Assembly: GCA_006384855.1 (NCBI GenBank)
Contig: VCJN01000830.1
Location: 1-64,000, forward strand
Direction: 5' to 3'
Origin: Tetraselmis striata
Lineage: Eukaryota > Chlorophyta > Chlorodendrophyceae > Chlorodendrales > Chlorodendraceae
Length of the DNA: 64,000 nucleotides
Made by a program: the position numbers and the translations under genes. The notes under the pieces are model-generated. The model searched no databases and was not told the DNA's origin. It was given only the letters and a program-made list of their open reading frames with translations. Of this stretch, positions 5,355 through 27,000 are shown piece after piece. The stretch's first letter is position 1, and every line of letters starts with the position of its first letter.

Positions 5355-5366
5355 TTCGAACGTGTA

Positions 5367-5660: not shown

Positions 5661-5664
5661 TTGA

Positions 5665-6048: not shown

Positions 6049-6264
6049 ATGAATGACAAACAGACCAAGCTTGAGATTAGCGCCATCGATTTTTTGTTGC
6101 TACGCGAACCGAATTACGGTAAGCGTGATTGGTGGGCGGCAAACTACCCAGGATTTACGCCTGAGCAATGTGAGCTTCTCGAGATTCAGTGTTGGGCGGA
6201 GGCTGGTGCTAAGGAAATCGAAAGTAAGATCAAAAAGCAATGCCGAAAAAAGAATTCGAAATAG
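6049..6264 (+). CDS. Small PLV protein upstream of ATPase, 71 aa
   Basis: ATG at 6,049 in an A-rich context (gaaaaaATGAATGAC). The frame is also open further upstream, but that part overlaps the divergent gene and lacks protein-like composition. The product has an acidic/aromatic middle (NYGKRDWWAANYPGFTPEQC) and a Lys-rich end (KIKKQCRKKNSK). The family is not recognised. Its end overlaps the ATPase start by 25 bp, which suggests co-transcription and linked translation. Confidence 0.6.
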   Translation: MNDKQTKLEISAIDFLLLREPNYGKRDWWAANYPGFTPEQCELLEIQCWAEAGAKEIESKIKKQCRKKNSK

Positions 6265-7515: not shown

Positions 7516-7555
7516 AGCGATGGCTTGATCATATTTTGTGATCTCGTATCAAAAC

Positions 7556-7888
7556 ATGAGCTTCTTCTCAAAATTCGGTCGCTCTCTCCGCAGCTTCGGG
7601 ACCAAAGTCTCTCACGGAATACGCACAGCCGGAAATAAGGTGGGCGATTTCCTGCTTGGAGCAACCCCAGTCTTATCCGCCATCCCAGGTATCGGCCCCG
7701 AGGCCGCCGCTCTAGCTGGTTCCGTGGGTGCCGCGGCAAAAGGTGTCGGAACACTCGCGGGCGTGGCCGAAAATGCTATCTCTGGGAGGGGCCTCGATTT
7801 CGCCGGCGCTAAAGCCGGGGCCGGTGCTGTAAAGGATGCCTATCGATCGATCAAGGGGCGAGGTTCCCCTCTGGAGCGAGGCAGTTAA
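7556..7888 (+). CDS. Small Gly/Ala-rich virion protein, possibly membrane-lytic (pVI-like)
   Basis: Start at aaaacATGAGC (7,556), giving 110 aa. It opens with an amphipathic basic helix (FFSKFGRSLRSFGTKVSHGIR), followed by a hydrophobic Gly/Ala stretch (VLSAIPGIGPEAAALAGSVG) and a basic end. The architecture resembles the small membrane-active proteins packed under the capsid in adenoviruses and PLVs. The function is inferred from this resemblance; no conserved motif proves it. Confidence 0.55.
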   Translation: MSFFSKFGRSLRSFGTKVSHGIRTAGNKVGDFLLGATPVLSAIPGIGPEAAALAGSVGAAAKGVGTLAGVAENAISGRGLDFAGAKAGAGAVKDAYRSIKGRGSPLERGS

Positions 7889-7915
7889 AACTTTTTGCAA
7901 GTATGAATCAAAACC

Positions 7916-9145
7916 ATGAGCGGCCTTTCGGACTCTTTCGTGTACGCAGCAAAACCTCGGGCCATTTCGGCCATGAAGTACCGCCACAACATTCCTCCTA
8001 TTAACGGGCGCGATTTCAAACCCGGCGATACCATCCAGCTTGCTGTCCCGTGCGGCAACAAGGGGGAGTATCTCAGCACGAAGCAGTCGTACCTCAAATT
8101 CAAGATCCGCAACAAGGATACCACTGCCGCTAATACCATGGTCTTGGACAACTCCGCCCACTCGGTTATCCGTCTGCTGGAGATTGTTTATGGTAGCAAC
8201 GTGTTGGAATACATTGACCAATATCCGGCGCTGGTGGCCCTGCTAGAGGACTCTCATGGTGACACCAAGCAAGCCGCCTTTGGGGGTAGTGTCACCGAGG
8301 GCAGGGCTACTAGTTCCCGTACTGGCGCGACAATTGCCGGAAGCGCTGAGATAACAGTGTGTCTCCCCCTTGTCTCGGGCATACTCGGAACTATGCAGAA
8401 TAAGTACCTCCCCGTCGGTGATATGGTGCGGAACCATCTTCGACTGAATCTTACCCTCGCTTCGCAGGAGGACGCCCAGGTTTCAACCGCATCACGCGCA
8501 TGGGATGTGATTGACGTGGAGTTTTGCGCGGAAATGATCAAGCTGGATGGTTCTGTGGCCAACGCAATTTCCCAGGCGAATGCGGGTGGCTACCGTATCC
8601 CCATGACCACCTTTAGCAACCACGCCTCGAGCGTCGAGACCGGCTCTACGCTAATCAATACACTTATTTCTGGCAATTACCGCTCATTGAAGACGATATT
8701 CAGTATCTTCCGTTTGCAAGATAATGTAGGTAAAGGAACTAAGAAATACGCCTCCACACGCACCAATCCCTTCGGGGATGCGGGTCGTTGGCATTATGAC
8801 GTTGGTGGTCAACTGAGTCCTCAGAAACCTGTTGATTCAAATGCTGAGGCGTTCGCTGAGCTTCAGAAGGCTTTCCATGCTTTCGGCTCTCTAGACCACC
8901 TCGGGCAGATCAAAAAGGAGACATGGGTAGCGAGTGAGGGAACCTACATTTTGGCCCAGGACCTCGAGACCCAGTCCCACAAGAGCATGGTTTCCGAGAG
9001 CGGTGTAGATGTGAGCACATCCACCATTTACCGAAAGGCTCAGTTCGCGGCAGCTCTTTCGGCAGCTCTCCGTATCGATACTTTCACTCATCAGGACGCG
9101 GTCCTCTTCATTGACCCTAGCGGTATGGCCCAGCCGGTTTTTTAG
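7916..9145 (+). CDS. Major capsid protein (double jelly-roll type)
   Basis: 409 aa from aaaaccATGAGC at 7,916. Early motifs are IPPINGRDFKPGDTIQLAVP and YLSTKQSYLKFKIRN, then SAHSVIRLLEIVYGSNVLEYIDQY. An internal LPLVSGILG strand is followed by KYLPVGDMVRNHLRLNLTLAS, the pairing seen where the two jelly rolls of PLV capsid proteins meet. The length fits PLV major capsid proteins. It sits after the ATPase and before the penton-like gene, the canonical order. The frame is uninterrupted. The fold call would be settled by structure prediction. Confidence 0.88.
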   Translation: MSGLSDSFVYAAKPRAISAMKYRHNIPPINGRDFKPGDTIQLAVPCGNKGEYLSTKQSYLKFKIRNKDTTAANTMVLDNSAHSVIRLLEIVYGSNVLEYIDQYPALVALLEDSHGDTKQAAFGGSVTEGRATSSRTGATIAGSAEITVCLPLVSGILGTMQNKYLPVGDMVRNHLRLNLTLASQEDAQVSTASRAWDVIDVEFCAEMIKLDGSVANAISQANAGGYRIPMTTFSNHASSVETGSTLINTLISGNYRSLKTIFSIFRLQDNVGKGTKKYASTRTNPFGDAGRWHYDVGGQLSPQKPVDSNAEAFAELQKAFHAFGSLDHLGQIKKETWVASEGTYILAQDLETQSHKSMVSESGVDVSTSTIYRKAQFAAALSAALRIDTFTHQDAVLFIDPSGMAQPVF

Positions 9146-9158
9146 GTGGAATACATAA

Positions 9159-10149
9159 ATGATAAGCCGGATCCTTGTAAATTCAGCGGACAGGTCTCGC
9201 GGGGAGATGTACGACTTTGCGTTTGATATGGGGCGGGGTCGTCTCAACGAGTTTGCCGGTAAACTGGTGCGCTTCGGTGTTGAATGGATAACGCCAGTCG
9301 TGGGGTCATCAATTGGAGCCTCTTATGAACAAAACACTCAGCGGTCGCTATCACTCCTTCTGACGTGCTTGTCGTTTCCGACGATCAACACACACAAGGC
9401 TTGGAATCGGGGTAACAAGGACCCCATCCTGGCGCTCCTGCCCTCGGCTCGCCAGACGGCTTATTACGGGGTAATGGCCGACACGCCATACCTCCAATCG
9501 ACAAGCTGTGGTGGTATAACCCTGGGCGACCAACTGGCGACCCTGGGAGAGCTCCAGTTCAGACTTTTTCAAACACATACCCCCACGTCCCGCGAGATAT
9601 TCCTTTTCAGACCGTTTGATAACGAGGATTTCAGTTTCAGCCTTGTGTTTTGGACAGATGAACCGGAGAGGCCAATCGCCCAAAGCTTCTATCATTTGTG
9701 GGTCAATAGCGGCGACAATCTAGCGACTCTTGTCAACAACGACTCGAGCGTTGTGAGCATCCCGTTCGATTTTAAGACCTTCGAAATGGATCGCACGACC
9801 CCCCTGGAACGTGGCGGTGAGCTATTGCTCACCAGTGTATGTGGACATGGCACTAGGCTCCTTGCCCCCGGGGCTTGTGATATTGACCCCAAGCTTTGTT
9901 ATCGATCCGCACCAAAACCGAAGCGTTTTGGCGTACCTACCTGGGAGCAACGATGACTCAGGCGAAAAGTACTTCGGCTACAAGCAAAACATCAAACCTG
10001 TCTGCAGCGACACGGTGGGTATTCCGATTCGTCCGCCTCTTGACAGCATGGGTTTTCTGACATTGGAGCTCCGGGATGCTGTGTCATACGCGCTCATAAA
10101 CGATGCATCACACTACGTAGTTTGTATAACATTTTACCGAGCGGATTGA
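9159..10149 (+). CDS. Minor capsid (penton-like) protein region
   Basis: Starts at the ATG at 9,159, 14 bp after the capsid gene. The N-terminal signature is SRILVNSADRSRGEMYDF, an opening typical of the penton-like single jelly-roll proteins of PLVs. Later segments include LATLGELQFRLFQ and SFSLVFWTDE. A distal segment holds NRSVLAYLPGSN, GEKYFGYKQN and MGFLTLELRD, the strand pattern of the same or an adjoining virion protein. The protein would occupy the five-fold vertices. The region may be one gene with about one break, or two overlapping genes. Confidence 0.75.
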
Positions 10150-10175
10150 GGAAATTTACTGACCTCGTCATTAAA

Positions 10176-11021
10176 ATGAACCGCCACACCTTAGGGACTT
10201 CAGAACGGAGTATCGAGTTCCCCGGCCCGCTTATCGGGTTTGGGATGAATACAGTTAGGATGGCGTTCGTCGAGCTCTTCGGGAAAGGCTTTTCGATCGA
10301 CCGGGGTCTTCTTTCTGCGCTTCTAACGTCGGTCGAGACAACGTTGTCAGAATCAGACATTGCTTTTCTCTTTGAATTTGAACAAACAATGGTCGTCTCT
10401 CAAGCACACCTTGGCGTGAACACAGTCAACGATATGGGTACGCGCACAGAAACGGACGTTAGTGCAAACATCTCGGGATCGACTCTCTCCTATACATACG
10501 ATGTGGGTGCCCCAAACGCTCTCCGGTACTACTGGATTAGGCTCATCGACGGCAACGGAAACGAGAGCATCACCCCTCTTGGCGCTTATACAACACAAGA
10601 CAACACCGACCCGGTCATCTCCACCTTCACTCTGGCCGCCGGTACCCCAGCTACCTCGGAGATCGCAATCACGATCTCGGCTACCGACAATGACGCGGTA
10701 CAGTCTTTGTACCTATGGGTCTCGGACACTCAAACCACCGCCCCTACAACCGCCGAAATCAAGGCATCGGGGACAGCTTTCGGGGGCACGGTCACTTCGC
10801 ACGTGGTAACGGGGCTATTGCCAGGGACCACGTACTACGGATGGCTACTGGCGAGAGACCAGGTCGGGAACGAGAGCGCAGTCACAGCTTCAACGCCTAC
10901 TACGCTCACAACCGCTGCTGATACCACTCCCCCGACACTATACTCGTCTACGCTGACGGCTACGGCTGGATATGAGGAGACGACCGTCGATATAGGCCTC
11001 TCCTTTTCCGACACGGCATGA
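10176..11021 (+). CDS. Virion fiber protein with fibronectin-III-like domains
   Basis: ATG at 10,176 (cattaaaATGAACC) preferred. About 90 N-terminal residues are unassigned and may be the capsid-anchoring part. They are followed by repeats of FN3-like strands: YYWIRLIDGNGNES, a DPVISTFTL linker, VQSLYLWVSD, VTGLLPGTTYYGWLLARDQVGNES and a DTTPPTLYSS linker. The T-x-Y-x-x-x-x-A/V-D-x-x-G-N-x-S ending is the classical FN3 F/G strand pattern. Such tandem domains on PLV and phage particles bind host glycans or proteins. The product probably decorates the vertex. Confidence 0.65.
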   Translation: MNRHTLGTSERSIEFPGPLIGFGMNTVRMAFVELFGKGFSIDRGLLSALLTSVETTLSESDIAFLFEFEQTMVVSQAHLGVNTVNDMGTRTETDVSANISGSTLSYTYDVGAPNALRYYWIRLIDGNGNESITPLGAYTTQDNTDPVISTFTLAAGTPATSEIAITISATDNDAVQSLYLWVSDTQTTAPTTAEIKASGTAFGGTVTSHVVTGLLPGTTYYGWLLARDQVGNESAVTASTPTTLTTAADTTPPTLYSSTLTATAGYEETTVDIGLSFSDTA

Positions 11022-11039
11022 TCTCTTCGCCTCTAGATA

Positions 11040-11456
11040 ATGAGCAACTCTGTGGTTACCGTTAACATCAGCCAGTTCAGAAGCAACACTCCAACCATTG
11101 CAACCTTCGTGGGGCGAAACACTTTGCTTGGGTTTACGACTTCGATCAAAATAAACTCGTTGGGGTACGAAATATCCGATATTGCAAGCCGTCAAAATCT
11201 TGAGATTGGGTTTAGCGATCCTTCGATACATGGCCAACTTGTATTCCGAAACCTAACAAATGAGCGCCGGCTCCGACTCCGTCAGTATCGACATCGAAAA
11301 TCCGTTATTGCTTCGGTGGCGCGAGTTATCCAGAAAACAACGAAAGATTCATGGGGACGCTTGCCGGTATTTCAAGAAACGGTACGATGCGGTGATATAC
11401 AACAACATTATGATCAGTTTGGCGGTCGGATGCGTTCACATTGTTTTCGGTATTAG
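11040..11456 (+). CDS. Small PLV protein of unknown role
   Basis: Starts ctctagataATGAGC at 11,040, 18 bp after the FN3 gene. The N-terminal 75 residues look protein-like (VTVNISQFRSNT, GRNTLLGFTTSIKINSLGYEI). The C-terminal part overlaps the next gene by almost 200 bp and is Arg-rich, so the real product may be shorter than the 138 aa read here. Family not recognised. Confidence 0.4.
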   Translation: MSNSVVTVNISQFRSNTPTIATFVGRNTLLGFTTSIKINSLGYEISDIASRQNLEIGFSDPSIHGQLVFRNLTNERRLRLRQYRHRKSVIASVARVIQKTTKDSWGRLPVFQETVRCGDIQQHYDQFGGRMRSHCFRY

Positions 11457-11757
11457 GCATACCGGCGAAATCGGTATAGCCGTGACCGTATCCGGGTGCC
11501 TTTCGCTCCTCGCGGGAGCCGTTTCGAGCCTGTCCAGTACAATGGGATGGTCGGAACGTTATAACAAACACGATGAGGTATCCACGAGATACTCCGAGCT
11601 GGTCCGGGAGATCAATATGGAATCATTTTTAAGTTCGGTGGACGACGGGGCGTACCGTAATATTTCTGATTTCATAAGGCACGTCGCGTCGGACATCACG
11701 AGACTGGAGGAAAGGGCGCCCCAGATCCCGAAATCGCTGGAAAATTGCTCTTCATAA
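11260..11757 (+). CDS. Two-TM SLATT-like membrane protein
   Basis: 165 aa from caaATGAGC at 11,260. An N-terminal amphipathic helix (WRELSRKQRKIHGDACRYF) precedes two hydrophobic helices, NNIMISLAVGCVHIVFG (about 46-62) and IAVTVSGCLSLLAGAVSSL (about 70-88). A long helical tail follows (WSERYNKHDEVSTRYSELVREINMES). This layout matches the SLATT superfamily, whose prokaryotic members are pore-forming effectors in conflict systems. Similar two-TM proteins occur uncharacterised in algal giant viruses. A role in virus-host or virus-virus conflict is inference. Confidence 0.6.
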   Translation: MSAGSDSVSIDIENPLLLRWRELSRKQRKIHGDACRYFKKRYDAVIYNNIMISLAVGCVHIVFGIRHTGEIGIAVTVSGCLSLLAGAVSSLSSTMGWSERYNKHDEVSTRYSELVREINMESFLSSVDDGAYRNISDFIRHVASDITRLEERAPQIPKSLENCSS

Positions 11758-11762
11758 GCAAA

Positions 11763-12549
11763 ATGAGCGGCTTCTCGGAGATACGTTTGTATCAGAACAC
11801 CACAAACAACATCCCAGTCGGGTCGTTTACAACGGTGACATCGGATTTCATAGGCACCGCGACCAGCACTATCGACCCCGGTGTGAGCTACGATTACGAT
11901 AACGGTTTGAAAACGGTAACAGGTCTATCGCCCGGAACTCAGTATTGGTTTCGGGTAGAACTCATCGATGGCGAAGGGAACTCGTCGGGAATTCAGCCCC
12001 TGGGTAGCCATACAACCAATAATTTACCCATTCCCGTTCCAGCCCTCACAGCGAATGTTGACCAAGGCTACACATTAACGGCATCCGACGAGGCAAACAA
12101 TAACTACTCGGGATGGTATATATTCAGTCGGGTACACGGTTTCTATCAAGCAGGATGGAATCCCGGTGGGACGGCAAACCCCCCTCACTATGTATCAATA
12201 CAGTTACCCGCGTCAGCGACAGTAAGAAATATAAGAATGTGGCATGTTGAAAGCTAAAAATTATTTAAAAATTACTTCTTGTCGTGTCGAGGGTAGCCAT
12301 GACGGAACGAATTGGACCGTGTTAGCCACATGTACCAACATGGCGCGCACAAAGATTCTCGCCGCGGACAAGACTACAAATACTCTCTTTCAAGCAGATT
12401 TTGATTCGCAAGTAAACGTTGAAGCCGAAGATTGTTACGTGTTTGAAGGAACTGTGACGACACCGGCTTCATACACACACTATAGATTGTACGTGCTTGC
12501 TCATGATGGGAATAGACCGGGAATAGACGAGCTTGTGTTGTTGCCATAA
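11763..12549 (+). CDS. Fiber-type region: FN3-like plus discoidin (F5/8-C)-like segments
   Basis: Opens at gcaaaATGAGC (11,763) with an FN3-like unit (ITVT-type strands, LSPGTQYWFRVELIDGEGNSS). A segment with GWYIFSRVHGFYQ, HYVSIQLPASATVRNIRMW and then VEGSHDGTNWTVLATC and YTHYRLYVLAHDGN follows. The VxGSxDGTNWxxL and YxxYRLYV pairing is characteristic of F5/8 type C (discoidin-like) carbohydrate- or lipid-binding domains. A receptor-binding role is inferred. This is the last gene of the rightward block. The region shows about one break. Confidence 0.6.
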
Positions 12550-12651
12550 AGAACACGGAGGTCATTGGCATATCGATTAACCAGAACTACCCAAATAGAG
12601 TACTGGCATAAGTACTGCGTAATGTACTTTTTGATCACTTCATTTCCCTCG

Positions 12652-12713
12652 CTACTGGGGATTTCTTGGTCACCTTGTCACGGGCCCTATTTATGACCAA
12701 GAAATCACCAAGT
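12652..12713. terminator. Long imperfect hairpin at the PLV right edge
   Basis: A perfect 13-bp inverted repeat (gatttcttggtca at 12,660-12,672 and its complement at 12,694-12,706) is extended by a nearly matching ctac...gg stem outside it, with a loop of about 21 nt. It lies about 110 bp after the last PLV frame. It could act as a transcript 3' end signal or be part of a terminal structure. Confidence 0.5.
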
Positions 12714-12826
12714 AGGGACCCGGCTTAATTATTTTTAATACTGGTCGGCGGCTTTGTGGGGGCGTTTTGTGGTCGGGAATGAGCGAAGCGAATTCTTGAC
12801 CCAAAACACCCCCTCATACTGTAGTC

Positions 12827-13056
12827 AGCTGGCGCAAAGGCATAAGGTGGACTCCCCTTGTGGTGCGGGTGCGTCATGTAGCAGGGCTGCCGCATGCCGT
12901 CCCTAGCGCCGCTGGACATCGGGAAGTCCAAGCGGTACGTGTACTGCGAATACATGTACTGGTAGCTAGCATTCAAACTGGAATCTTAACGTTACCAGTA
13001 CCTACCGGTGACAGAATAGCCCGGTGTAATCAAACCTCTATATTACCAATATGATC
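12827..13056 (-). repeat. 3' terminal repeat of retroelement 1
   Basis: About 225 bp shared in the same orientation with 19,598-19,877. Shared landmarks are agctggcgcaaaggca, ggacatcgggaagtccaagc and acagaatagcccggtgtaat. The inner end (tagaggtttgattacaccggg when read on minus) matches both termini of the second retroelement at 54.1 and 58.7 kb. This defines the family's conserved terminal word. Confidence 0.85.
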
Positions 13057-13887
13057 ATTTAACCATGATGGGGCCGCATTTGCCATCATGCCGTCCATGG
13101 GCGGGCAGCCTGTCGCTGGCGGCCCACTAACCCAAGGGGTAAGCCAGCCGAAGAGCTGCCACGATGCCGCACACGGAAGCGCCGTGGGATTGATGTAGTC
13201 GAGCACGACGCTGGACAACTGCGCCCAACCGCCAAAGTGCTTGATGTTCTGCAGCACCACGCTGATGGCGTACGCCGCAGTGGCCGCGCCCTTGCGGAGA
13301 GAGTGTGACGTCCACACAAACCCAGGAGGCGGGTGCTCCTCCAACATATGTGCCACTAGCTGCAACCAATCTGTAACGGTGGCCGATGTCCACGATGCCG
13401 CCGGCTCGTCGTGGGTCACTGCCCACCGGGCTGCTGGCAGTCCGCGCTGACCGCAGTGAACTGCGCGTGCGGCATCAAAATAGAGCAGCAGGGCCGCAAT
13501 GCGGGGCTGAGCGCGCGCCGGAATCGGACACTGTAACTTACGGTCACGGTGCTGCCCGCGTCTGCCTTTTCGGCTCCGATGGTACAATGGGATTGTACCA
13601 TCGACAGTAACCGTCAAATCGCCTGTTTGGCAGGCTACGCCGGCCTTGCCACGCGCGTAGAACACACACATGGCAACGACTGCCATCGCGGCGCGGAACA
13701 AGAGGATACGAGGAAGCTGGTCGCGGGTCCATGTGGGTCCGAACTCCTCATGCAGGGTCTCCGCCAACCGCAACGTCCGTGTGATCAACCGGGCGGGCAC
13801 GTCGGTGCGGACCACAGGCGGGTCTGGCTCAACTTGCGACGCCGCGAGGCCCTTTCTCACCTTGCTGATGAGTTCGCCTTGCGCCAC
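13030..13887 (-). CDS. Tyrosine recombinase of retroelement 1 (catalytic part)
   Basis: The frame reads 285 aa. The C-terminal catalytic signature is VWTSHSLRKGAATAAY, the H-x-L-R-K-G box of DIRS-type tyrosine recombinases, followed by IKHFGGWAQLSSVVLDYI, which supplies the W/H-type residue and the nucleophilic Tyr. An N-terminal SAM-like DNA-binding part lies just upstream (14,250-13,930; TASTYGSTIRPFLHLC). The enzyme joins the circular cDNA of the element to the genome without a target duplication. The symbol is left blank because element genes have no standard name. Confidence 0.85.
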   Translation of the reverse strand: MAQGELISKVRKGLAASQVEPDPPVVRTDVPARLITRTLRLAETLHEEFGPTWTRDQLPRILLFRAAMAVVAMCVFYARGKAGVACQTGDLTVTVDGTIPLYHRSRKGRRGQHRDRKLQCPIPARAQPRIAALLLYFDAARAVHCGQRGLPAARWAVTHDEPAASWTSATVTDWLQLVAHMLEEHPPPGFVWTSHSLRKGAATAAYAISVVLQNIKHFGGWAQLSSVVLDYINPTALPCAASWQLFGWLTPWVSGPPATGCPPMDGMMANAAPSWLNDHIGNIEV

Positions 13888-14299
13888 CGGCTCCGCGCCG
13901 TGGTCGCGGTAGAAACCGTTGATCGCGGAAAGCTAAGGCTGCATACTGGCTGCCTTGACCGTTCCCCACAAACCCTGCCACGCGATGTAGCGCGCGACGG
14001 TTGCCGCCGTGCCATCCAGGGGAGACACACCCAGCTCAGCGCATAAATGTAGGAATGGGCGGATGGTACTGCCGTACGTACTGGCGGTAGTCTCTGCCCA
14101 CGCCGACGCGTTCAAATGAAACGCCGTTTCGCCGAGTTGGTCGTTACCTAGTATTGAACGCATGTACGGACTCATAGTAGCTGCCCACGGGTTCGTGCCG
14201 GTGGTCTGGATGTCCAACAGGTTTTTTGCCTGCGGCACGCGTGGTGCGCGCGCGGGCCTGACATGCGTAGCACCTCGTACCGGGAACAACGCCAAGGTT

Positions 14300-15430
14300 G
14301 CGCCCACTGATCCGCGGCGCAGGTGCAGCCATGACGGTATGGCACACGGAAGACACTCACTGCCCATCGCGGCGCTCCGGGCATATCGCGCCCTGCCCTC
14401 CGCCCCGGCCGAAAAAGATCGCGGCGAGGCAGTACCACGCGCTCCGCCACCGCCATCTCGGTAAGTGCATGGTGCCACACCTTGCCCTCCCAGCGAGGGG
14501 CCACGACGGTAGCGGCCGCGCCGCTCTGTCGCAGCTTCTACACCAGGTCTGGCAGAAGCGGCCAAGGGGGGGTTGCAGTTGTTGTTCTCGCGACGCCACT
14601 CCGCATCGGACAGGTGCAGGGAGTCCACCGCCTCGCAGCCGGGGTCCAACCACGCAGCGTTGTATCGTGGTAGCATCGCGTTCAGGGTTGATGCGAACCG
14701 ATGGACGGAGTGCGCACCCCACATTGCCTCCAGCTCTGCGACCATGACGGGGTCTAGTTGCCATCAGTCGTAGCTGTCGAGGTGTCGGCTCAGTCGATCC
14801 GCCTAGACGTTCGCGGCGGACCGGATGTAGCGGGCTCTGATGTGTACGCCTTGTTGTCCAGCATGTACCATAGCTTGCGTAGTTCCGCCATCATCGCCGG
14901 AGAGCGGGAGGTGAGGCCAGCAAGGACGTTGCACACCGCCTGGTTGTCCTCGTGCCGCAACACACGGCGACCGGCGAGATGCGGCGGGAAAGACTCCACT
15001 GCCAGCCGGACGGCCTTCAATTCTTTCCAGGTGATGTGCTGGCGCTCGTCGGCTGCCCCCCAAAACCCCCGCGCCTCCAGCATGCCATTCAGCACCGCAC
15101 CCCAACCGTAGCCGGAGCTGTCGCAGTGCATGTAAGCTGTCTCCACAGGGCGGTGAATAGGGCGGCCGTTGGCCTGAGTCGGCACGGCGGTCCACCACTG
15201 CAGATCGCGCCGCAGCTGGTGTGTCACGCACACTCGGCCGCCCCACTTGGAGCCCACCACGTCGTGAAGCTCCCGCAGGTAGAAGCGCGCGGCCGGGATT
15301 GACAAGAAAAAGGTATTGAGCCCGTCCAGCGAGCGACTGCAGCTCCCGCACGGGTAGCCAACGGGCGTCGCGGGCCACGCGCTGCAGCAATTGCTTGGCT
15401 TGGCGCGCGAGTTTGTCCACCGGGGCATGA
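14300..15430 (-). other. RNase H and connector domain of retroelement 1
   Basis: The RNase H part (about 15,230-14,880) shows TAYMHCDSSGYGWGAVL with the catalytic Asp, then HITWKELKAVRLAVESF with the catalytic Glu, and VLRHEDNQAVCNVL with a third acidic residue. Downstream frames resemble the connector found between RNase H and recombinase in this class (NPP...W and LAGRARCGTMH-type segments). Confidence 0.75.
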
Positions 15431-15474
15431 AAATATCCCGTGGCTGTGTCGATGTCGATGTCCACCCCCAGGTG

Positions 15475-16308
15475 CTAGCCGTACTGGACCGGCTCCCACA
15501 GCCCTTTGGCGGGGTTGCGCAGCAGGCCCAGGCTGTCCATCAAGTCGGCGACGCGCTGGCGGAGCTCTAGCGCCTCCGGCTCCAACGAGGCGATCAACAA
15601 GAAATCGTCGACGTATGGTAAGATGCGCGCTCCCCTCCGCCGCCCGCGGCGCGACCGCGGGACATTGCCAGGCGCAGCGGGGGTAGTCGGTGAGCGTAGG
15701 TGCTTGACGAACGTCATCGTGAACGTCGTGAAGTAGTAAGGGCTGAGCGACCAGCCCATGGGAAGGGCGCACAGCCGGTAGAGGGTCCCGCGGATGTTGA
15801 CCGTGAAGTAGTTGCGGTCGGAGGGCGCGATGCCCACGGCATAGAAGCCGTCTTGCAGGTCGAACGAAAACATGTAGTCCCCTTTCGCGGTCAGGTGTCG
15901 GACGCCCATGAGTGTCTCCATCCGTAGTCGCTTGCGCGCGCAGAAGGTGTTGAGCACGCGGAGGTCGATTATGAAACGCCACTGGTTGTCGCCGGGTTTC
16001 GGAACGAAGAACGCCCGGGACACCCACCATGCGCACGACGACTTCTCCCACGCGCCGGCCGCCGTAAAGCGTCTTAGTTTGGCGGTGGGGAACTTGAGTT
16101 GGGTAGGGGTTGCGTCGTTGAACGAGACGCCTTGGTTGGACCTTGGGGGTGGCCGGTTGTAGCGGAAAGAAGGCACGCGTACGCCATCCCGTATCCAACT
16201 CGTCACTTGCGCGCTCGCGCCGATGTCTCGCCATTGCCGCCAACTCCGCCCTACGCGGTGACACATATAGTCGGAGTCGGGGCAACGGCTGTCGGTGCGG
16301 CGCGCCAC
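15475..16308 (-). CDS. Reverse transcriptase of retroelement 1
   Basis: 277 aa read. Reverse transcriptase motifs in order: SRAFFVPKPGDNQWRFIIDLRVLN (block 1-2), FSFDLQDGFYAVGI (block A, catalytic Asp), LCALPMGWSLSPYYFTTF (block B) and ILPYVDDFLLIA (block C, YVDD). It copies the element RNA into cDNA. The sequence type is DIRS/TOC rather than copia or gypsy, judged by its coupling to the tyrosine recombinase downstream. Confidence 0.88.
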   Translation of the reverse strand: MARRTDSRCPDSDYMCHRVGRSWRQWRDIGASAQVTSWIRDGVRVPSFRYNRPPPRSNQGVSFNDATPTQLKFPTAKLRRFTAAGAWEKSSCAWWVSRAFFVPKPGDNQWRFIIDLRVLNTFCARKRLRMETLMGVRHLTAKGDYMFSFDLQDGFYAVGIAPSDRNYFTVNIRGTLYRLCALPMGWSLSPYYFTTFTMTFVKHLRSPTTPAAPGNVPRSRRGRRRGARILPYVDDFLLIASLEPEALELRQRVADLMDSLGLLRNPAKGLWEPVQYG

Positions 16309-16312
16309 ACCG

Positions 16313-17020
16313 TCAGCCGCCGTTCTTGTCGCGGTTCTTGGCGTCCGCCTCGCGGCGTTGGTGCTGCCGCCTCTCGCGCGCCGCCTTGTCCTTTTCCTTC
16401 CGCGCCTTGTCGCGGTCGGTGTCGCGCTCCGCTGCTTGCCTCAAGGTCGCTGATGCCTGTGCCTTGGCCGCAGCCGCAGCCGCGAGGCCGACCTCGAGGC
16501 GCTTGTCCTCGAGCGCTGCCAGGAGGCCATCGACGACGTTGGCGGAGCGCTCATGCTCGGCGGTGTCGAAGACTCGGGAGTAGATGAGTCGCTTGGCGAC
16601 TTGCTCCTCGGGGGTGAGGGCCTTCTTGGCCTTGAAGCGTCGAAGGTAGGTGAGCCTGGCCTCATCCGCGTCTTCCACTGCTTCAAGCGTGCGATGCGCG
16701 GCGTCGAGTAGGTCGAGGGCGTTGGCACGGTCTTGGGTGGGGGTATCGGGCGCGCGAAGCGTAGCCATAGCTGTCTTAGCCACCGCGTTAGCGGCGGCGC
16801 GGTAGACGCCATAGCACAGCAGGTGGCGGTACTTCTCGCGCGACGCAGTTTTGTTGGCCTCAGTGAGATAGCGGTCGGCCTCGTCGTTACGGGGCCGCCA
16901 GAGGCTTGGGCGTGTGGCGCCGACCGGGGGGGGGGGGGGGGGGGGGGGGGCGAGCAGTCTTGGTACGCCCGGGGCAAGAGGTCTTCCCAATCCCGAGGTC
17001 GATGAATACGGCCGCGGCGT
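16313..17020 (-). CDS. Gag-like protein of retroelement 1
   Basis: A helical, charged protein matching the corresponding region of retroelement 2 (shared LTYLRRFxxKxxLTxEExVAxRLxY-type core and VDGLLAALxDKxLEV). Upstream the word RPRDWEDLLPRAY matches DPRDWIDVLPRAY in element 2. The match ends at about 17,020, where kinase-like host sequence begins. A proline run reflects a pure G tract at 16,926-16,950. The tail is Arg/Lys-rich (DKARKEKDKAARERRQHQRRE), fitting RNA binding. Confidence 0.7.
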   Translation of the reverse strand, partial: TPRPYSSTSGLGRPLAPGVPRLLAPPPPPPPPVGATRPSLWRPRNDEADRYLTEANKTASREKYRHLLCYGVYRAAANAVAKTAMATLRAPDTPTQDRANALDLLDAAHRTLEAVEDADEARLTYLRRFKAKKALTPEEQVAKRLIYSRVFDTAEHERSANVVDGLLAALEDKRLEVGLAAAAAAKAQASATLRQAAERDTDRDKARKEKDKAARERRQHQRREADAKNRDKNGG

Positions 17021-18046
17021 CGCGCGCGGACCCCCGTAGCAGCTTCATCAACCCGCAATACATCCAGAGCGCGGAGTACCGCGCCGCCAGCGACGTCTAC
17101 AGCGTGGGCGTGTCCATCCTGCTGGCGCTGCTGGGCCGCACGTGAGTTCTGGCCGGCGCCCCGGGTGAATGCCGCTGGTGCTGATGCGGCGACTGTATTC
17201 CGTCTATCCCTCTCTCTTTGCACCCAAAAGAATGGTGAGATGACATTTGACCTGGCGTGGCTGTGTTGGGCAGGGAGCCGACCGGCATGGTTGATGAGGT
17301 GAAGGACGCCAAGGATGACGGAGTGGAGATGGACCTGCTGGACCGCCGGCCCGGCGCCGGTCAGTGGGACAGGGGAAAGGCGGCCAGCGTGATGCGCCTG
17401 GCGCTGCAGTGTGTGCACTCCAACCAGAGCCGCAGGTGAGGACTCACCGCGTGCCGTACGCTGCCAGTGCGCGGACGCGGTGGTGTTTGATGTTGATAGG
17501 AACTAGGGGCGTCGGCGCGGTGTTATTAAGAACTTGGTGCGAATAAGAACTTGCCCTACTTGTCAGAGGTCAAATGTAGACGAAACTATGGCGAATGGTC
17601 TCAATAGTAGGCTGCGTGCAAGCCCAATTAGAGGCTTCTAATACGGGGTATTATGGGTGCGCCGTAGCTGATTTTGAAATGTTATGGATAGGCATGCCAA
17701 AGCGCTTGAGGATCCATGCTGAGCTGCATGTGGTTGGGAACGGCCCGGGCCAAGCTTGGCGGATGTGGTGGAGCAGCTGGCGGAGTTCAAGGACGCGCGG
17801 GCTCCCGCCCAGAGTGACGCCCGACCGGCAGCGGGCCCCGCGCTGGACATGGAGGAGTGGCTCATCTGCCCGATCACACAGGACATCATGGCGGACCCCG
17901 TGCTTGCGGAGGATGGCTACACGTTTGAGAGGGAGGCGATCGCGGCGCACTTTCGCCGCCGCGCAGTGTCCCCCATGACCAACCTGCCCATCGGCACTGC
18001 CGTTCTCCCAAACCGCATTGTGAAGTCGATGGTGGAAGAGTGGTAG
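17020..18046 (+). pseudogene. Protein kinase/U-box fragment (PUB-type), 5' part missing
   Basis: Three plausible exons: from about 17,020 to 17,141, 17,274-17,435 and 17,754-18,046 (TAG), with GT-AG introns and consistent phases. Exon 1 encodes the activation-segment end and helix F of a kinase (FINPQYIQSAEY, SDVYSVGVSILLALLGRT). Exon 2 gives the C-lobe (VMRLALQCVHSNQSR). Exon 3 starts SLADVVEQLAEF and continues into a complete U-box (WLICPITQDIMADPV, GYTFEREAI, SPMTNLPIG). U-box kinases of plants couple a receptor-like kinase domain to E2-dependent ubiquitination in this order. The N-lobe and catalytic loop are absent. Sequence upstream is the retroelement gag, so it is a truncated copy, probably non-functional. 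Confidence 0.75.
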
Positions 18047-19330
18047 GGGCCTGGCGCACGATGTGCGCCGCTTGTCGCGGCATTGAACCGGAATACACCG
18101 GGTGCGTGCTCCTGATTTGTGACTCCCGCTGTGTTGGCGCCCTGTGTGACGGACCTCTCACCCGCGAGCAGGCTGAGCAGGAACCGTGGCTAGCCGGATC
18201 AGGCGTGCCACTGGGACAGCAGCGTTGCCGTGCGCCGGCGGCGAAATGTACCGGCGGAGATGGTGTAAGCGGGTGGGCGCATGGCTGCACCCTGCGCAGC
18301 TTCGTTGCTTCGGAACAGCTCCTTCCCCCAAGTCTCTGCTATCCTGTGCCGTGTAGCCAAGCATGAGGATGGAACGGTGGTAGCGGCGCCCAACCAAGGA
18401 CCATCAGTCGTTGCCGAGCGTGAGCTGAGACGCGCTCAATCATCGGCAATGGCTCGTGGATAACTATGTGTGCGCCGTCGTTTCCTCGACAGTGGACGGC
18501 GTCATTCCTACCTTCGGCGCAGAGTGTTTGGGCTGGCATCCTCCGCTCCGCCCTGGGTGGCGGTGCCGTGGTAGCGCAAGCAGTAATGGTGTCATTCAAT
18601 CTCTGTGTAAGTGAGGCGATGCTCACACAAAAATGACCCGCCTGTATATTGCCCCTGTATATTTTGGAATCTGTACCATTTATGTTTGATCTATTGGGCC
18701 ATCTGGCCACATGTGCGTTTTATACAATAATCCAGAACGTATCAAGAAATTGCGCAACCTGCCGGGCAACTGGTACCCTGTAGTGCCATTGGTGTGCAGC
18801 TGGGCCTCTGGCGGTGTGGCTGCCGAGGGTGGGTAGTGCCCCTGATGTGTCCAGAGTGCGATGCCGGAAGAGAAGGCAGTCACCAGCTCGGCAACTGCTC
18901 GTCCAGCAATCCGCCCACACTCGCCGGTGTTGAAAGCGGCAAGGCGGCTGCCCACCTGCCTGCTTGCCCCGCAAGAGTCGTCGCATGCACCGCGCGTTGG
19001 AAACACGCGATGGGATGCAACAAGCCGTGGCGGAAAAAGCCGGATGCTGGCTCTGTGTCGCACGAGACGATGTGTCTGGAGCGTGGGCCTCCCATGGCTC
19101 GGTGTGCCCGCCTATTTATTTGCCGCCGAGCTCTTTCTGCGCATTTATTGTGTGGTGTACTGCAGGGAGCTGCCAGGCGGGTCCAGCCGACCGCTGAGAA
19201 AGTGGCGGAGGATGGCAAAGTTTTTTGGGCACTTGGACCAGCCGCAGAGCTGCCCACCGACAAAGAGCACACACGACGCTGCGCCCGGTCTGTGCACAAC
19301 CCATATCCCGCCAGCTGTGTATGCTACAAA
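18047..19330. other. No gene seen; remainder of the foreign segment
   Basis: About 1.3 kb between the U-box stop and the resumption of retroelement sequence. Frames on both strands are short and shadow-like. It probably represents the 3' UTR and downstream flank of the U-box gene that came along with it. No terminal repeats or target duplications are evident at either junction. Confidence 0.4.
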
Positions 19331-19597
19331 GCGATAAAGCGTCCACCTTCAACGCCATCGCTTGCATTGACGCAATCGTTGTCGTGTCCCGTGACTGTCG
19401 TCTCTGTCGGCTCCGCGGGCGTTTCGGCCAAACTGTCGGCTGACGTTGCCTTCGTAGGGTCTGCCGCCTTCTTGCCGCCTGCCATCGTAGCGTGCGCAAG
19501 TGTCGTATGTGGTGGAAGACTAGTCGTCGAGACCGTCCACTCGTAGAGATATTCACACCTTGCACACCTACGAGAGGTGCGACGCCGTTGCGCTAGC

Positions 19598-19877
19598 TGG
19601 TCAGCTGGCGCAAAGGCAGAAGGTGGACTCCCCTCGTGGTGCGGGTGCGTCATGTAGCAGGGCTGTCGCATGCTGTCGCTAGCGCCGCTGGACATCGGGA
19701 AGTCCAAGCGGTACGCGTACTGCGAGTACAGGTACCGGTAGCTAGCATTCAAACGTTCCGTATGGATTTCTGGAATTTTGCATCTAGCCCATGTAATTCA
19801 AACTAGAATCTTAACGTTACCAGTACCGGTGACAGAATAGCCCGGTGTAATCAAACCTCTATGTTACCAATATGACC
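19598..19877 (-). repeat. 5' terminal repeat of retroelement 1
   Basis: Same orientation as the repeat at 12,827-13,056, but about 50 bp longer owing to an extra block next to a duplicated attcaaac word. The outer end reads ggtcatattggtaacatagagg on the minus strand, the family terminus also seen at 54,126 and 58,742. Confidence 0.85.
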
Positions 19878-20377
19878 AATAAATAATAATTTCTACGGCA
19901 GGGCTTAACTACACAGCAAACAACACTAACAGCAACTATGAAAGGTTGTTTTTTCGTCCCCGGGACAGGACTGGCACCAGTGAAACAATTGACCCCTGGT
20001 GAAACCCTTGCAGCGCAGTTTTAATACTATGAAAGGTTGCCAGCAAAAGAGAGATTATGAGCCTGAGACCAACGTCGAGCATGAGGCGCCAGGGCGCCAA
20101 GAACCAAGGAAGACCCAAGGGAACCACGAAGTCGCCAAGGTGCCAGGGACCAAAGAGACCACCGCCCATATATACCTGTGTTAATATTGAGATAGCATGT
20201 ATGAGCGATAAACTTTTAATAAGTCGTCGGATCAGCCTCGTATATACAGTACTCGTTCGGAGTCTGTTGACGAGGTCACCCGCTGGATCACCCCAGTCCC
20301 CCAGTCGTCTGCTGGCACCTCACCTGTCTCGCTTTCACGTTGCCCACCCGCGAGCCACCTCAAGCCTGCTCGCTGCG
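19878..20377. other. Upstream region of the hydrolase gene
   Basis: About 500 bp without a convincing gene. It is AT-rich at first (aataaataataatttc), includes two tatgaaaggttg words about 95 bp apart (19,937 and 20,030), and has tatatata-type words at 20,167 and 20,240 that could serve as core promoter for the plus-strand gene at 20,378. Confidence 0.4.
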
Positions 20378-20965
20378 ATGTATGCGCCGCCCGATGGGGG
20401 CGACGAAGTGGCGGCGCTGGAGTCTGTCGCGCTGGACGGCGTGATGAGCGCGGTCCCGCTGAACTCGCGCCCCAGCGTGGCGACCGGCGCGCTGGCGGTG
20501 GTGGACGCGCGCTCCGGCGGCAGCGTCAAGGCGGATCTGATGCCGGCGCTGCAGGTGATGGAGGCGCGCAAGAGCGTCCGGCGATACCGCGGCACGCAGG
20601 AGCCCACGCGCCCAGGTGGGTGGTACCGACCCAGTGGGGCACGACCGGTGGGTGGGATGGGGGTAAAGGTGAACACTGGGTAGGCTGCCATCACGATCGC
20701 TTGACGTGATGTTCGCGAGTTGGAACACTCAGTCTCAGGGCGCACCGGTGCCGGTACCGGGTAGGAGTAATAGGGGCCGCCGCCAAGAGCGAGGCCTGTA
20801 GCATAGGAGATATATGCATATATATCATGTACGAGGTATGTGGGCAGGCATATGCAGTAAACACATGTGTTAGTGTGTCCACGGTGCTTTGTCGGTTCAA
20901 GATGTTTTTACGTGGCGAGTGCGAATCCCTCTTTGGCACATTCCCCTCCATCCTTCATCCTCCAG

Positions 20966-21000
<35 letters not shown>

Positions 21001-21022
21001 CCCTCCCCCCTCCCCCGTCCCA

Positions 21023-21056
<34 letters not shown>

Positions 21057-24000
21057 TTGTACGGCTTCAGTCATCGCCCCACGGCATTGGTACTGGACCC
21101 AAAACATCCGCTTGTCTCAAGCTGACAGCGAGATTGCCAGGTGGCTGCTGATCATGACGCTGAAGTTGCGCTGTGCACCCATGGCAGGCGTCACCTGGGC
21201 GCTCTTTGGCCTGTTTCTGCTCAGCATGCTGTACATTCCGGAGCTGTCAGGAGCGCATGATGCGGCCCCATACCCCACAGCCACTGACGTGGAGCCGCCG
21301 GCCCCGGGAGAGATTACCTACTGGCTCGCGGTCTTCGGCTTCTCCTTCAACGGCAAAAACCCCGGCAACTTTGAGGCCATCCTGGGCTTTGTCCTGCTGT
21401 TTGGCTTCTTGCTGGTATGCTACATCATTATCAAGGCGCAGGTGTACTACCGTCTCACCCTGGCCAACTACCTGCTGGCCGCGCTGATCCTCATCAACAT
21501 CATAGGCCGCTCCCAGATCACGATCGACAACATGGCGCCCGCCGTCGTCATCGGCCCAGCCATCGTCATTATGTTTTTCATCTATGTCACCTATATCCTC
21601 GCTACCCTCTTCTTATGGCATCAGCTGCCCGGTGATGCCCTTACCCCCCCCCCCCCCCCCACTCACACACACACATGCGCCTCTCCCGGGAGGAGATTTA
21701 CATCGCCCTGCCAGCTGTGCATGCGGTTTCTGAGAGGCATCTCACCACCTCAATGGAGCATGTAGCTGTAGCCCTGTCTGATCCAATCACTGAGTATGGC
21801 CGGCTTGGCGCCTCGATACGCAGGTCTGCAGCAACAAAACGGCTGGTTCATGCCAAGGATCCTGTCCAAGCAGGCCTTCCGTACCCCAGCGGTCGTGCAG
21901 CAGATGATCGAGGACATCTACCAGAGTGCGTAATACTACCCCCCCCCCCCCCCCCCCCCTAAAAAACCTAACCACACCCCATCTACCACTGGCTCGATTT
22001 TTTTACACAGAGCAGTGATGATGGTATGTAGGGGAAGGCAAGCGTAACTGACATTCTCCGCTTCCTCTCACTCCCTTTGCTGGGCGGCACCAGACTCATC
22101 AGCAACCCAGCCAATGGGGCATGGGCAAGCCGCCATGAAGATCACCTACTGCGGCTGGAGTTCCAGGTTGGCAAGCATACCTATCCGCCACAACGCCCAT
22201 GCCAGTCCAATCACTTGCCATGTGCCTTACGCACCTGCTCATGCCCATGCTGCTCACCTACCTCCACGCTTTCTGCGACTGTAAGCAGTATAACTAAGCG
22301 CCCATGGCTAAGCGTGCATCTGCCCTGGTTGCGCTGGTGCAGCTTCCTGCCTGCCAGCCTGCGCAAGCAATTGAAGAGAAACTTCACCGTGACCTATGCG
22401 GGCGAGGTGGATGAGCAGGGCCGCCCACACGGGTAACCTCTCCGCGCCCCTCCCATTATGCATGATGCATGATGAGCCCCCATGATGCATCTAAGAGCCC
22501 CGTGCAGCAGCGGTGACCGCATGCGGCGCTCTCCCGCGCAGATATGGCGAGTGGAATGACAACTACTCCAAAGGCGAGGTGCTCACCGGCTGGTGGGCGC
22601 ATGGCGTGCCGTTTGGGCCCTTCCGGTCGCGTGAGTCGGGCAGCGGGGCAGGTAGCCCCCCCCCCCCCCCCCCCCCCGGTCCAATAAAAAAGCACGCACC
22701 CACACACCCACACCCACTCCCTCTTTCGGCGCAGAGCAGGGCCGCCACCGCTGGCGTCTGACGCAGCATGGTCCCATGTGCCTGGCCGTGTCATCACTGC
22801 AGGCTTCCAGCGCGTGCTGCAGCCCTACTTCCGGAACCGCACCGACACTTGGAACACCAACAACGTGCGCGCCAAGGGGCCGCACCAATGCCAATCAGGC
22901 AATGCCGCCATCACCGGGTCTCTTGCGGGTCGCGCTGACTGCGCCTTGCCTTCCCAATCATGCCAGGGCAAGCTGGATTACGGCCCCATCACTGTGGGCA
23001 TCTGTCAAGTGGAGTGCTGCACAGCGGGCATTTTCTTCCGGGAGTACCCAAAGGTAGCATGCGGCGCACACCCATCCCATCATTCTCTCTCTTCCCGAAG
23101 CTTCTAGGCGCCACCCGGCAAGCTCTGCGCCCCCTTCCCTCCTCCTTCCCGGCTGCTGAGGCCGCCGCCCACCTGGCCTGCTGCCACCGCCGCGCAGTGC
23201 TCCGAGTTCTTTGAGGTGGAGCCCAGCGGCTCTGTCCAGAAAGACGTGTGGGAAATGCTGGAGAAGCTCAACTCGATGCCAATGCAGCTGGAGCGCCTGA
23301 CGTCCCTTGTCGTGCAGGTGGGTGGGACTGCTTTGGCGCCCACGGCCAATTTGTCCTCTGTGTCTAGATGAGCTGCTCACCGACTCCCCCCCCCCCCCCC
23401 CCCCCCCCTTCCTTGCTTTGCCTCCTGGTAGGGGGACTTGCAACGCGGCGTGCTCATCTCAGGCCTCAACACCGTAGGCGGTGCGCCGGCGTTCTCTGCC
23501 ACCGTTGGCTTCCAGGCAGGCTTCAAGCTGCCGCCATCGCTGTCCAACGGCCTGAATGAGTACCTGGCGCACACGTACCGCCATAGGATGGTGCGTCGCC
23601 CTAGCACGAAGACGCTTTTGCATTGGCGGCATTCGTTGTTGCTGTTGTTGTTGATGCGGTCGTGAAGTCAGTGCACCGTTGCCGACACTGTATCGATGCA
23701 GCATGCACCCTTAGCTGCCGCCTAGATTGCCGGCCCTCCGCACCGGTCTTCCCAAACAGCAACAGGTTCCTGGATGTGCCTCTTGCCTACGCAGGTTGCC
23801 GGAGACTCCGACGAGGAGGACACCCCCCTCACTGACTCCGACATCGAGTCCCAGGCGGCAGACACTGCTTCGCAAGAGGCACGGCAGCGCTCCGCCTCGC
23901 AGCCGCGGCTGCAGATACCGGTGCTGACGGTGGAGGGCTGGGAGCGCAGCACCCAGTGCGAGAACTGCGAGGCGCTGGTGTTCCTGCCGGGCTTCAACTC

Positions 24001-27000
24001 CATGACCGCCGGCAGCGCAGCGGTGAGTCGGCCGCAATCACGGCCTCCACCCTTGTTCGCGATATTGCCACCGCCGTAGAGACAGGCCAGTCATTTAGAG
24101 GGCATGTCACTGGACGACGGCGTCTGGTGACAATCCCGGGCTTGTGATAGCCGGGCTGCACATAACGCTCCCCCGCAACTCGCCGCTGTTCTCACGCACC
24201 GGCCTCACACCACACACCACGGCGATCCATTCAGCCTCCCGCACCCACCCGGAATGATGAACACGCGCCCGCATTCACAGCCGGCTTGTGCATAGCCTCG
24301 GGGAGATGGTATGAGGACTACACATAAGAAAACAACGCAGTTCGCGATATTATTAAACTTCTGGTACATGTACTTTCGGAAACCAGCGCAGCTTTAGGCT
24401 ATGCGGGTCGTGCGGTGAGCTTCGGTGCTGGATTTGAGTGAACGTAAGGTATGTTGGTAGCATCTGGCCCAGCCATGAACCCCCCCAGCCATGCATGGAC
24501 CCTTGCTTGTGCCTCCGCGTGCACCCGCACGTCCGCACCTAAGCGCGTATTTCCACAAATAGCAGTGGCATAACCCTGTATGTGTATGGTGTGAGGACAG
24601 GAATAACGCAGCACTCCTGTCACATGTTGATGGGGGTGCCGACCTACGTGGAAGAACCCTTATTTTCAGCCTCAAATTGGGCTTGATAGCAACCTGTAAG
24701 ACCATTTGCTATAGTTTGTTCAAGGTTAGACCTCTGCCAGGCACGGCAGGTTCTGTCTCGCAGTGGTCTCGCCACTGCGCCGGCACCCATAGTTATGCTC
24801 TGACTCATGATCCATAGTCCTGGTTCAGAGCCGGCTTGCCCCATGTGCCCGCCCCGCAGATCATGGCGCAGCTGCTGGCGCTGGGGAACTTCCCATCCTA
24901 CATCAAGACGGTCATCTACAGCTGGCCGGGTGGCAATCTCGGCACGTACCCGGTGGCACAGACAAAAGGTGCCACCCAGCGCATCGTAATAGACAACACT
25001 GCGCTAGTCTGAGGACTAGAATCCCCATGTTTAGGGTATAAGTAAAATGGCTTGTAGCCAATGCATGTTCGTTAGGAGTACTCTGCGCTTTGGGCTGAAG
25101 CGGGGAGCACTGCCCGCTCGTCGGCACAGGTGCGGAGAGCGAGCGAACCGCTGAGGACCTGAAGCAGCTCCTGCTGGCGCTGAACGCCAGCGGCATCTCC
25201 AAGTTCCACATCGTCACGCACAGCATGGGCATCCGCGTGCTCACCGCCGCCATCCCCCAGCTGGAGGTCTGAGGCGCCTCGATGCCGCCACCTCTCTGCC
25301 CCCTCAACACACTACACACTTTGGCATGTACCCCTCAGGTGTCTCGGGTCTCCAGCATCCCTGCCTTACGGCCAGCCGGGCTTGGACAGCCTCAGCCATG
25401 CGCCGGCTTACCGTCACGCTCTTTTCCTAATCCGTCGAGACTCGGACATTGCCATCAACGTGACCATGTCTCCGAAACCATCCAACCCTGATGGTGTCGG
25501 TGCCGTGCGCCCGCAACATGACGCTGTCGCAAATGGCTGACTGCTGCGGTGCCGCTGCGCAGGAGCTCTTCCTGACCTCGCCCGGGCAGAGCGGTGTGCG
25601 CTTGGGGCAGATGCAGCTGTGCACCATCACGATGCTGAACACCGAGGTGCGCCCGCCCGGCTTGCTACGGCCACCTCAGGCCTTCCGAGGAAGCCCCCCC
25701 CCCCCCCCCCCCCACGGCCTACTTCATTGACCCAGAACTCAACAAGTCAACATTGCCTCAGAGTAAATGACAATCACCGGCCTCATCACAAATGCCCTGA
25801 CCCCTCTCAGCCTGCAGTACAACGAAGTGCGATCAGTTTTGCGCCTGATGAAGCAATGTGCGCTTGCGCTTTTCGTCCATGCTTGGGACATGCAGATGGG
25901 CCGCCACGAGTTTGTGGACTGCTACGCCCGGCGCCTGACAGGTGTGGCCGTCTGCCCGCCTGATTTGCGGGGCTCTCGCTGCCTGGGAGGCATCCCGCGG
26001 AACAGTCTCTGAGGCGGTGCGGCGGAAGCGGAGGCGTTGCTGTCACCCACCCGCACCGGCTGACCCTTCCTGACCCCCCCCCCCCCCCCCCCCGTTCCTT
26101 GCCCCTTTCTTTGCAGCCATGAGCCCGTGCGTCACACTGTACGCGGACGCCCTGGATACCGCGCTCTTTGGCGCTGAGCTTCAGAACTCCGTCCTCAAGT
26201 AACTCCCCCCCCCCCCCCCCCCCCTCGGCTCCTCCTTTCGGCTTTTCTATGGAGGACGGTTTTGAGTGACATGTGCTGCCTTGCCTTGTCCCCAACTAAG
26301 GGTCATCATCATCATCACCGTTGGCCCGCTGAGCCCTGCCTGGGGTAATTTGTCGTCCTCCCCGCAGGTGGCTGTTCCCCAAGCGCCGCGCCCCCAAGGT
26401 GCACGAGGACCTGAGCAAGGCGCCGGAGGAGAAGCGCAAGGCGCGCGCCAGCAACTTGTGGGAGTACAGCCTCGGCCGCATCAAGAAGGACCTGCTGGTG
26501 CGGAGATGCGCGTCTACCTGCTCACTCGCCCTTGCCAGCCTGGAACCAGCCTGCTGCCCCTGACAGGCTGCTGTCCGGGCTTGTTGGGCCCCTCATAGTC
26601 AGCACGTGCCGGCATTCTAACTGTGGTTGACTACCTGCACGTAACACACGCGCAACCAGTCATGCTATATCAGATGTCGACATCACTAGCCAGCACAGGA
26701 GGGCAACGCACCGCTCTGATCAAAACCTGTGACCCCCCCCCCCCCCCCCCCCCCCCCCAACAAAAAAAAGGAATTTGCTCATTTTACTTTGACGTGCTTG
26801 AAAGGAATTTACCCGTTTGGCCCGGGGGTTTGCTGCCCATCAGTATGCGGACGGCACCGTGGTGGACGTGGACGTGGTGCAGACCACCCACCTGGGCGCC
26901 AACGTGCAGGACGTGCGCCACAACGCCTTCTCACTGAATCGCGAGCTGGTGGACGACCTGCGCGACGTGCTTGTCAACCGGCAGCGCGCGTTTCAGCGGA

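Follow-up and report, generated by a model that had tools for sequence, protein, structure and literature searches.

A fragment of a host kinase/U-box gene that still carries its introns lies within the gag-like gene of a putative tyrosine-recombinase retroelement in the green alga Tetraselmis striata, and most likely entered it by repair of a DNA break, not by reverse transcription. The window analysed is a stretch of 64,000 nucleotides (contig VCJN01000830.1, positions 1 to 64,000), in which two parts of the minus-strand element bracket the plus-strand fragment (Table 1). This arrangement had been proposed in a first-pass annotation and is borne out by element homology on both sides, by paralogs of the fragment and by its GT...AG introns. 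With the donor family, the uninterrupted site in 29 other copies of the element and both junctions known, the case is a clean one.

Table 1. Features of the interrupted retroelement and of the host segment within it (window positions).
Feature	Position	Strand	Remarks
A2 repeat, retroelement	12824..13055	-	first ~11 bp gone; no outer B2 in the window
B1 repeat	13056..13085	-	~28 bp like the far end of B2 in 5/7 sister copies
Putative tyrosine recombinase, open piece	13030..13932	-	Pfam PF00589 E=0.013, under curated cut-off
RNase H-like piece	14790..15539	-	PF17919 E=8e-4, under curated cut-off
Reverse transcriptase	15475..16440	-	PF00078 E=3e-15
Gag-like ORF, 3' side, to left breakpoint	16313..17043	-	
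Left junction	17042..17043	.	2-bp microhomology GC, element and host donor
Captured host segment, 3' part of kinase/U-box gene	17042..19326	+	2,285 bp; paralog homology
Exon piece, kinase C-lobe	17042..17141	+	
Intron	17142..17273	+	GTGAGT...AG
Exon, kinase tail	17274..17435	+	
Intron	17436..17754	+	GTGAGG...AG; dispersed repeat inside at ~17,538-17,664
Last exon, U-box	17755..18046	+	stop TAG
Downstream of stop	18047..19326	+	1.28 kb, common to paralogs
Right junction	19327..19331	.	5-nt filler CAAAG
Element leader and gag 5' side	19332..19589	-	
A1 repeat (5' end)	19590..19878	-	

Structure of the Retroelement

The element occupies approximately 12,824 to 19,878 of the window and encodes a reverse transcriptase together with RNase H-like and putative tyrosine recombinase pieces, the latter containing an HSLRKG motif spotted by eye. 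In sister copies an A1 repeat is found at the 5' end and the order B1-A2-B2 at the 3' end, where an outer stretch of about 120 bp beyond A2, the length of B2, is common to the seven sister 3' ends compared (ten were fetched). Likeness between B1 and B2 was detected in five of these seven, and a repeat search of 12,300-13,200 in the window returned no such pair. PAT-like and Ngaro elements are known for split direct repeats of this kind (PMC6681497, PMC3266345), and PAT-like elements have been reported from Chlamydomonas relatives (PMC8226300). The element is provisionally classed as PAT-like, an assignment based on its repeats and on the PAT-like reports in chlorophytes (PMC3266345, PMC8226300).

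The family is large: first-look searches gave 618 candidates with a gag-RT query and 789 with a 5' query, 40 of each being scored. Two copies (L041 on contig C2181 and L042 on C776) share an internal boundary at the position of window 16,732, perhaps marking a deletion-derivative subfamily. The A1 repeat of the window holds an insertion of ~47 bp at ~19,755-19,802 that is absent in the 15 other repeats compared.

Interruption of the Gag-like Gene

Element sequence reaches position 17,043 and picks up again at 19,332, leaving 2,288 bp between. The first-pass annotation was right in placing two junctions here, at positions to be corrected from about 17,020 and 19,330. The site was compared with 30 distinct other copies of the element (38 loci from two queries, eight of which are second loci of a copy). 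The two sides of gag lie 102-117 bp apart in 29 of these copies (37 loci), the distance being 114 bp in 23 of the 29, and the corresponding 114 bp of gag are gone at the interruption in the window copy. The thirtieth copy (contig C2666, L021/L065) retains the 114 bp and carries an insert of ~16.9 kb at the same base as the left breakpoint of the window. The host segment was found in none of the 30 other copies examined, a sample of a larger family; the search for further copies sharing it, suggested by the first-pass annotation, came back empty for this sample. Two independent retroelement insertions, which that annotation had named as a way for its reading to fail, were ruled out: put together, the two parts make up one element that lacks no more than 114 bp at the interruption.

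The Host Segment and Its Donor Family

The segment begins near the end of the kinase activation segment, as judged by eye, and continues through the C-lobe, two introns and the U-box to the stop codon; the description of the captured part as a kinase N-lobe was therefore mistaken. Its exons keep an open frame through all 183 codons and its splice-site dinucleotides are intact. Pfam recognizes the U-box at E=1.3e-13. Taken by itself, the short exon piece of the kinase falls under the cut-off (E=0.021) and owes its name to a full-length paralog on contig C1568, whose spliced product of 357 aa contains a protein kinase domain (E=4.5e-37) and a U-box (E=2e-12). The captured piece is a promoterless gene fragment in a broken element, with no evident function.

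Among the 40 of 628 candidates that were scored, five match 17,042-19,326 over the full length at 91-92% identity (four on contig C2725 and one on C1568), and partial matches lie on C2725, C1568 and C990 (76%). The four C2725 copies form a tandem array with a unit of ~10.6 kb. In the array copies read, the remainder of the kinase domain adjoins the segment on the left and unrelated downstream DNA on the right, and element sequence was seen in none of the 13 donor loci fetched. The segment diverges by 6.5-8.3% from seven array copies and by 20% from the C990 copy. A search for the parental gene elsewhere in the genome, also proposed at the outset, accordingly recovered relatives on three contigs; the exact donor copy was not found among the paralogs compared, the best of which differs at 6.5% of aligned sites.

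The tandem kinase/U-box genes occupy ~80-156 kb of C2725 and ~36-57 kb of C1568 (L049-L051, L053, L054). Between them lie long WD40-repeat ORFs of about 240-580 aa, built of similar units of ~141-168 bp. WD40 and kinase are combined in one database protein (EukProt P0006, labelled jgi/Tetstr1/440820), so that the tandem genes may encode WD40-kinase-U-box proteins. This protein matches the genome at 99% in two pieces, residues 1-75 and 115-199, on contig C2003.

The pentanucleotide TGTAA serves as a poly(A) signal in chlorophytes. It occurs at 18,606 in the segment, is conserved in 7/7 array copies and is missing from the C990 copy. This bears on whether the segment might be cDNA of an unspliced kinase-gene transcript that a cellular reverse transcriptase had copied and that then served to close a break. 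The first-pass annotation held that capture must have been at the DNA level; the introns do exclude a spliced mRNA, but they are compatible with such a patch, and human templated insertions can come from RNA, with intronic sequence among the templates (PMC5110952). The segment nevertheless runs on for ~0.7 kb past the TGTAA, a predicted signal, and no poly(A) is seen, so that an RNA template appears quite unlikely.

Junctions and Probable Mechanism of Capture

At the left junction the element reads ...CGTAGCAGC|GGCTG, the donor ...CCTGG|GCTTCATC and the window ...CGTAGCAGCTTCATC, with GC common to both partners, a 2-bp microhomology within what is expected by chance. At the right junction the donor reads ...TTTGCTA|TTTGG, the element ...GCGGGT|CGATAAAGCG and the window ...TATGCTA-CAAAG-CGATAAAGCG, the five bases CAAAG being derived from neither. 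The AAAGCG spanning this junction is found again 2 bp farther into the element. As 312 of 4000 random fillers gave a repeat this long, locally templated end joining is no more than hinted at. No target-site duplication was seen at the junctions, where 114 bp were lost rather than duplicated, and neither end of the segment carries poly(A).

An 18-mer across the left junction occurs once in the genome as an exact match. The assembly is a draft (224 Mb in 2,903 contigs) and both the element and its kinase partner belong to repeated families, circumstances under which two element fragments and a kinase fragment could have been joined wrongly. Misassembly is nevertheless very unlikely: the segment is identical to no assembled paralog compared, at the divergences given above, the element parts complement each other except for the missing 114 bp, and two separate precise junctions would be needed.

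The best explanation is break repair with ectopic chromosomal filler DNA in an integrated PAT-like retroelement, which we consider probable. It rests on the loss of recipient bases, the lack of a duplication or poly(A), the slight overlap and added bases at the junctions, and the location of the donor family on other contigs. A double-strand break would have arisen in gag of the integrated element; one end would have stayed at 17,043 and the other would have lost 114 bp. The gap would then have been filled with a chromosomal copy of ~2.28 kb from a member of the kinase/U-box family, either by synthesis primed on an ectopic template or by ligation of a loose fragment, and error-prone joining would have sealed the ends, one through 2 bp of microhomology and the other with five bases added. 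A break as the cause, DNA as the template and capture after integration are thus what we infer from the sequence. Insertions of this type, class 2 templated insertions, have been ascribed in human to the patching of double-strand breaks (PMC5110952).

Three routes had been offered by the first-pass annotation, and of these filler DNA at a break fits best. A simple nested rearrangement leaves unexplained why 114 bp were lost, why the partners overlap by 2 bp and where the five extra bases came from. DNA-level transduction is not borne out, as none of the 30 other copies examined carries the segment, which is antisense to the element. The same applies more broadly to transduction or template switching during retrotransposition of the element. 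Such an origin would suit the position of the segment inside a retroelement and the similar terminal branches of the window in two FastTree phylogenies (3.7% for the segment, 3.5% for the element), but it is highly improbable given that the segment is antisense and retains its introns, that 114 bp were lost and that none of the 30 other copies examined carries it. The antisense orientation and the retained introns count against an origin through the element's own reverse transcription: switching on a spliced mRNA is ruled out by the introns, and switching on sense pre-mRNA by the orientation.

Transposon Excision as a Possible Source of the Break

A special case of break repair would have a large DNA transposon insert at 17,043 and excise, the resulting gap being patched with kinase DNA. 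The C2666 copy of the element bears on this possibility. The two ends of its insert are related to one another in inverted orientation (94% over 54 bp), the insert is flanked by a repeated CCCGTAGCAGC(G), in which the true duplication measures about 8-12 bp according to the end points chosen for the insert, and its left edge coincides with the left breakpoint of the window within 1-2 bp. Excision events in rice include 9 of 94 with both a deletion and filler, and one with an exact left border and a 2.5-kb deletion on the right (PMC4423477). Against these points, the 1.5 kb from the left end of the insert has no match in the window, the rice fillers reported in the same source are 1-123 bp and hence far shorter than the segment, and the ~16.9-kb insert is presumed to be a single transposon from ~1.9 kb of read sequence. 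With no clear target motif in the five insertion flanks seen, a separate hit on this very base would a priori be improbable. In a search allowing up to two mismatches, the same end beside a similar target turned up at one further place, on contig C2080 (two mismatches), which has no match to the retroelement copy compared.

Transposon excision as the source of the break is accordingly suggestive only, and on balance rather unlikely. The fuller scenario, in which the same ~17-kb transposon family hit the gag site in two copies and left the window copy before the kinase patch followed, is unlikely; if true, a transposon would have induced the transfer of a gene fragment into a retroelement, and the pre-excision state would be preserved in a sister copy.

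The insert belongs to an unclassified, DNA-transposon-like family that is abundant, its left end giving 575 first-look candidates (40 scored). It lies at ~16289-33190 of C2666 (L021, L065), within gag of the sister element, and ends in (G)GGTACAGGGGGCAATATCGAG and, inverted, GGAAAAAGGGCAAATATCGAG. A similar end is present in the element copy on contig C1851 (L016), at a place matching window ~14,568.

Timing of the Capture

Divergence from the closest array copy is 2.4% in exons and 9.9% in introns, and when that copy was set against four others of the array the values were 1.5-3.1% in exons and 7.7-11.2% in introns, with exon limits 1-4 nt off the refined ones. Because the pattern resembles that among the array copies, most of the divergence of the segment probably predates capture and accumulated while the gene was under constraint. 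Substitutions specific to the window number 38 in 2,270 positions, an upper bound on change after capture; five of them fall in exons, where they alter four amino acids. The capture looks young in view of the array-like exon and intron divergence, the 183 open codons and the small number of window-specific positions. Three array copies are identical, and one of them stands for all three in the divergence comparisons and in the counts for the segment; the C990 copy was excluded from the singleton counts for the segment.

Window-specific changes were also counted in the gag-RT region of the element, for which 12 copies were aligned and the three most diverged (L011, L018, L028) left out. The element shows 51 changes in 1,966 sites against nine copies and the segment 30 in 1,713 (Fisher P=0.09), the latter sites being those without a gap or a disagreement among the other array copies compared, where 30 of the 38 substitutions lie. 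Transversions number 17 in each and do not differ (P=0.73), and CpG transitions (12/392 in the element, 1/236 in the segment; P=0.04) favour a younger segment. The A1 and A2 repeats of the element differ at 19 of 237 sites, compared with 5-13 of 240-245 in seven sister copies; at an age equal to the bound for the segment, 7.9 differences would be expected (P=6e-4). Three of the ten sister 3' ends were left out of this comparison, L057 (C2036) and L061 (C1633) having no repeat match and L056 (C2883) a poorer one. The A2 of the window is unusually distant from all the other repeats compared (8-12%), and its difference from A1 may therefore overstate the age. Together these counts weakly suggest that the element was in place before the segment was captured. 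The FastTree branch lengths disagree with the counts of window-specific changes, and dating by branch lengths was set aside as not decisive, the closest array copy changing along the segment when viewed in 200-bp bins.

DNA Neighbouring the Element

The DNA to the left of the element (window 1-12,820) is lower in G+C, at 45-60% per kb against 62-67% at 13-17 kb, and many genome matches stop at its right end, 12,820, where the A2 of the retroelement is cut. Plus-strand ORFs lie at 7,907-12,549, two of which reached no curated Pfam cut-off when tested. Six ORFs tested in the block gave weak PHROGs matches, some of tail type. The block is possibly a Polinton-like virus insertion, such insertions being known in Tetraselmis (PMC10120064), and tyrosine-recombinase retroelements and virophages are also reported to nest in Cafeteria (PMC8547959). 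On the other side of the element, C homopolymers of about 17-30 nt are numerous over a few kilobases (window 20,960-26,760).

Comparison with Known Systems

Intron-bearing fragments of host genes are found in mobile DNA through capture by Helitrons and Pack-MULEs. Here, no ends of a capturing transposon surround the host fragment, at most 5 bp being unassigned at its edges, and host homology and retroelement sequence are no more than 5 bp apart on either side; Helitron or Pack-MULE capture was ruled out, there being no room for termini. The case cautions against taking chimeras of this sort for gene capture by a retroelement, and the many copies of the element could help to measure the scars of break repair in a green alga. 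Judged by titles and the beginnings of abstracts, none of the papers among the literature matches listed concerns this T. striata case.

The element itself resembles PAT-like retrotransposons (PMC3266345, PMC6681497) in its reverse transcriptase/RNase H, its putative tyrosine recombinase and the order A1 ... B1 A2 B2 of its sister copies; the window copy differs from them in being without B2 and without 114 bp of gag and in holding host DNA.

The event has features in common with two described types of repair. As in the class 2 templated insertions of human (PMC5110952), a distant template, a micro-deletion, microhomology and added bases are combined with the lack of a duplication or poly(A); it is unlike them in that the organism is an alga, the target is a retroelement and the insert is a gene segment with introns and an open frame. 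It is likewise similar to the filler DNA of grasses, where gene fragments or foreign segments are copied into a break at or near a transposon (PMC3445842, PMC4423477), and unlike those cases in being one copy in an alga, in exceeding the length of the rice fillers and in that excision would here be only a possible trigger. The capture is therefore an event of a known kind, in which both ends are readable and which is unusually well resolved.
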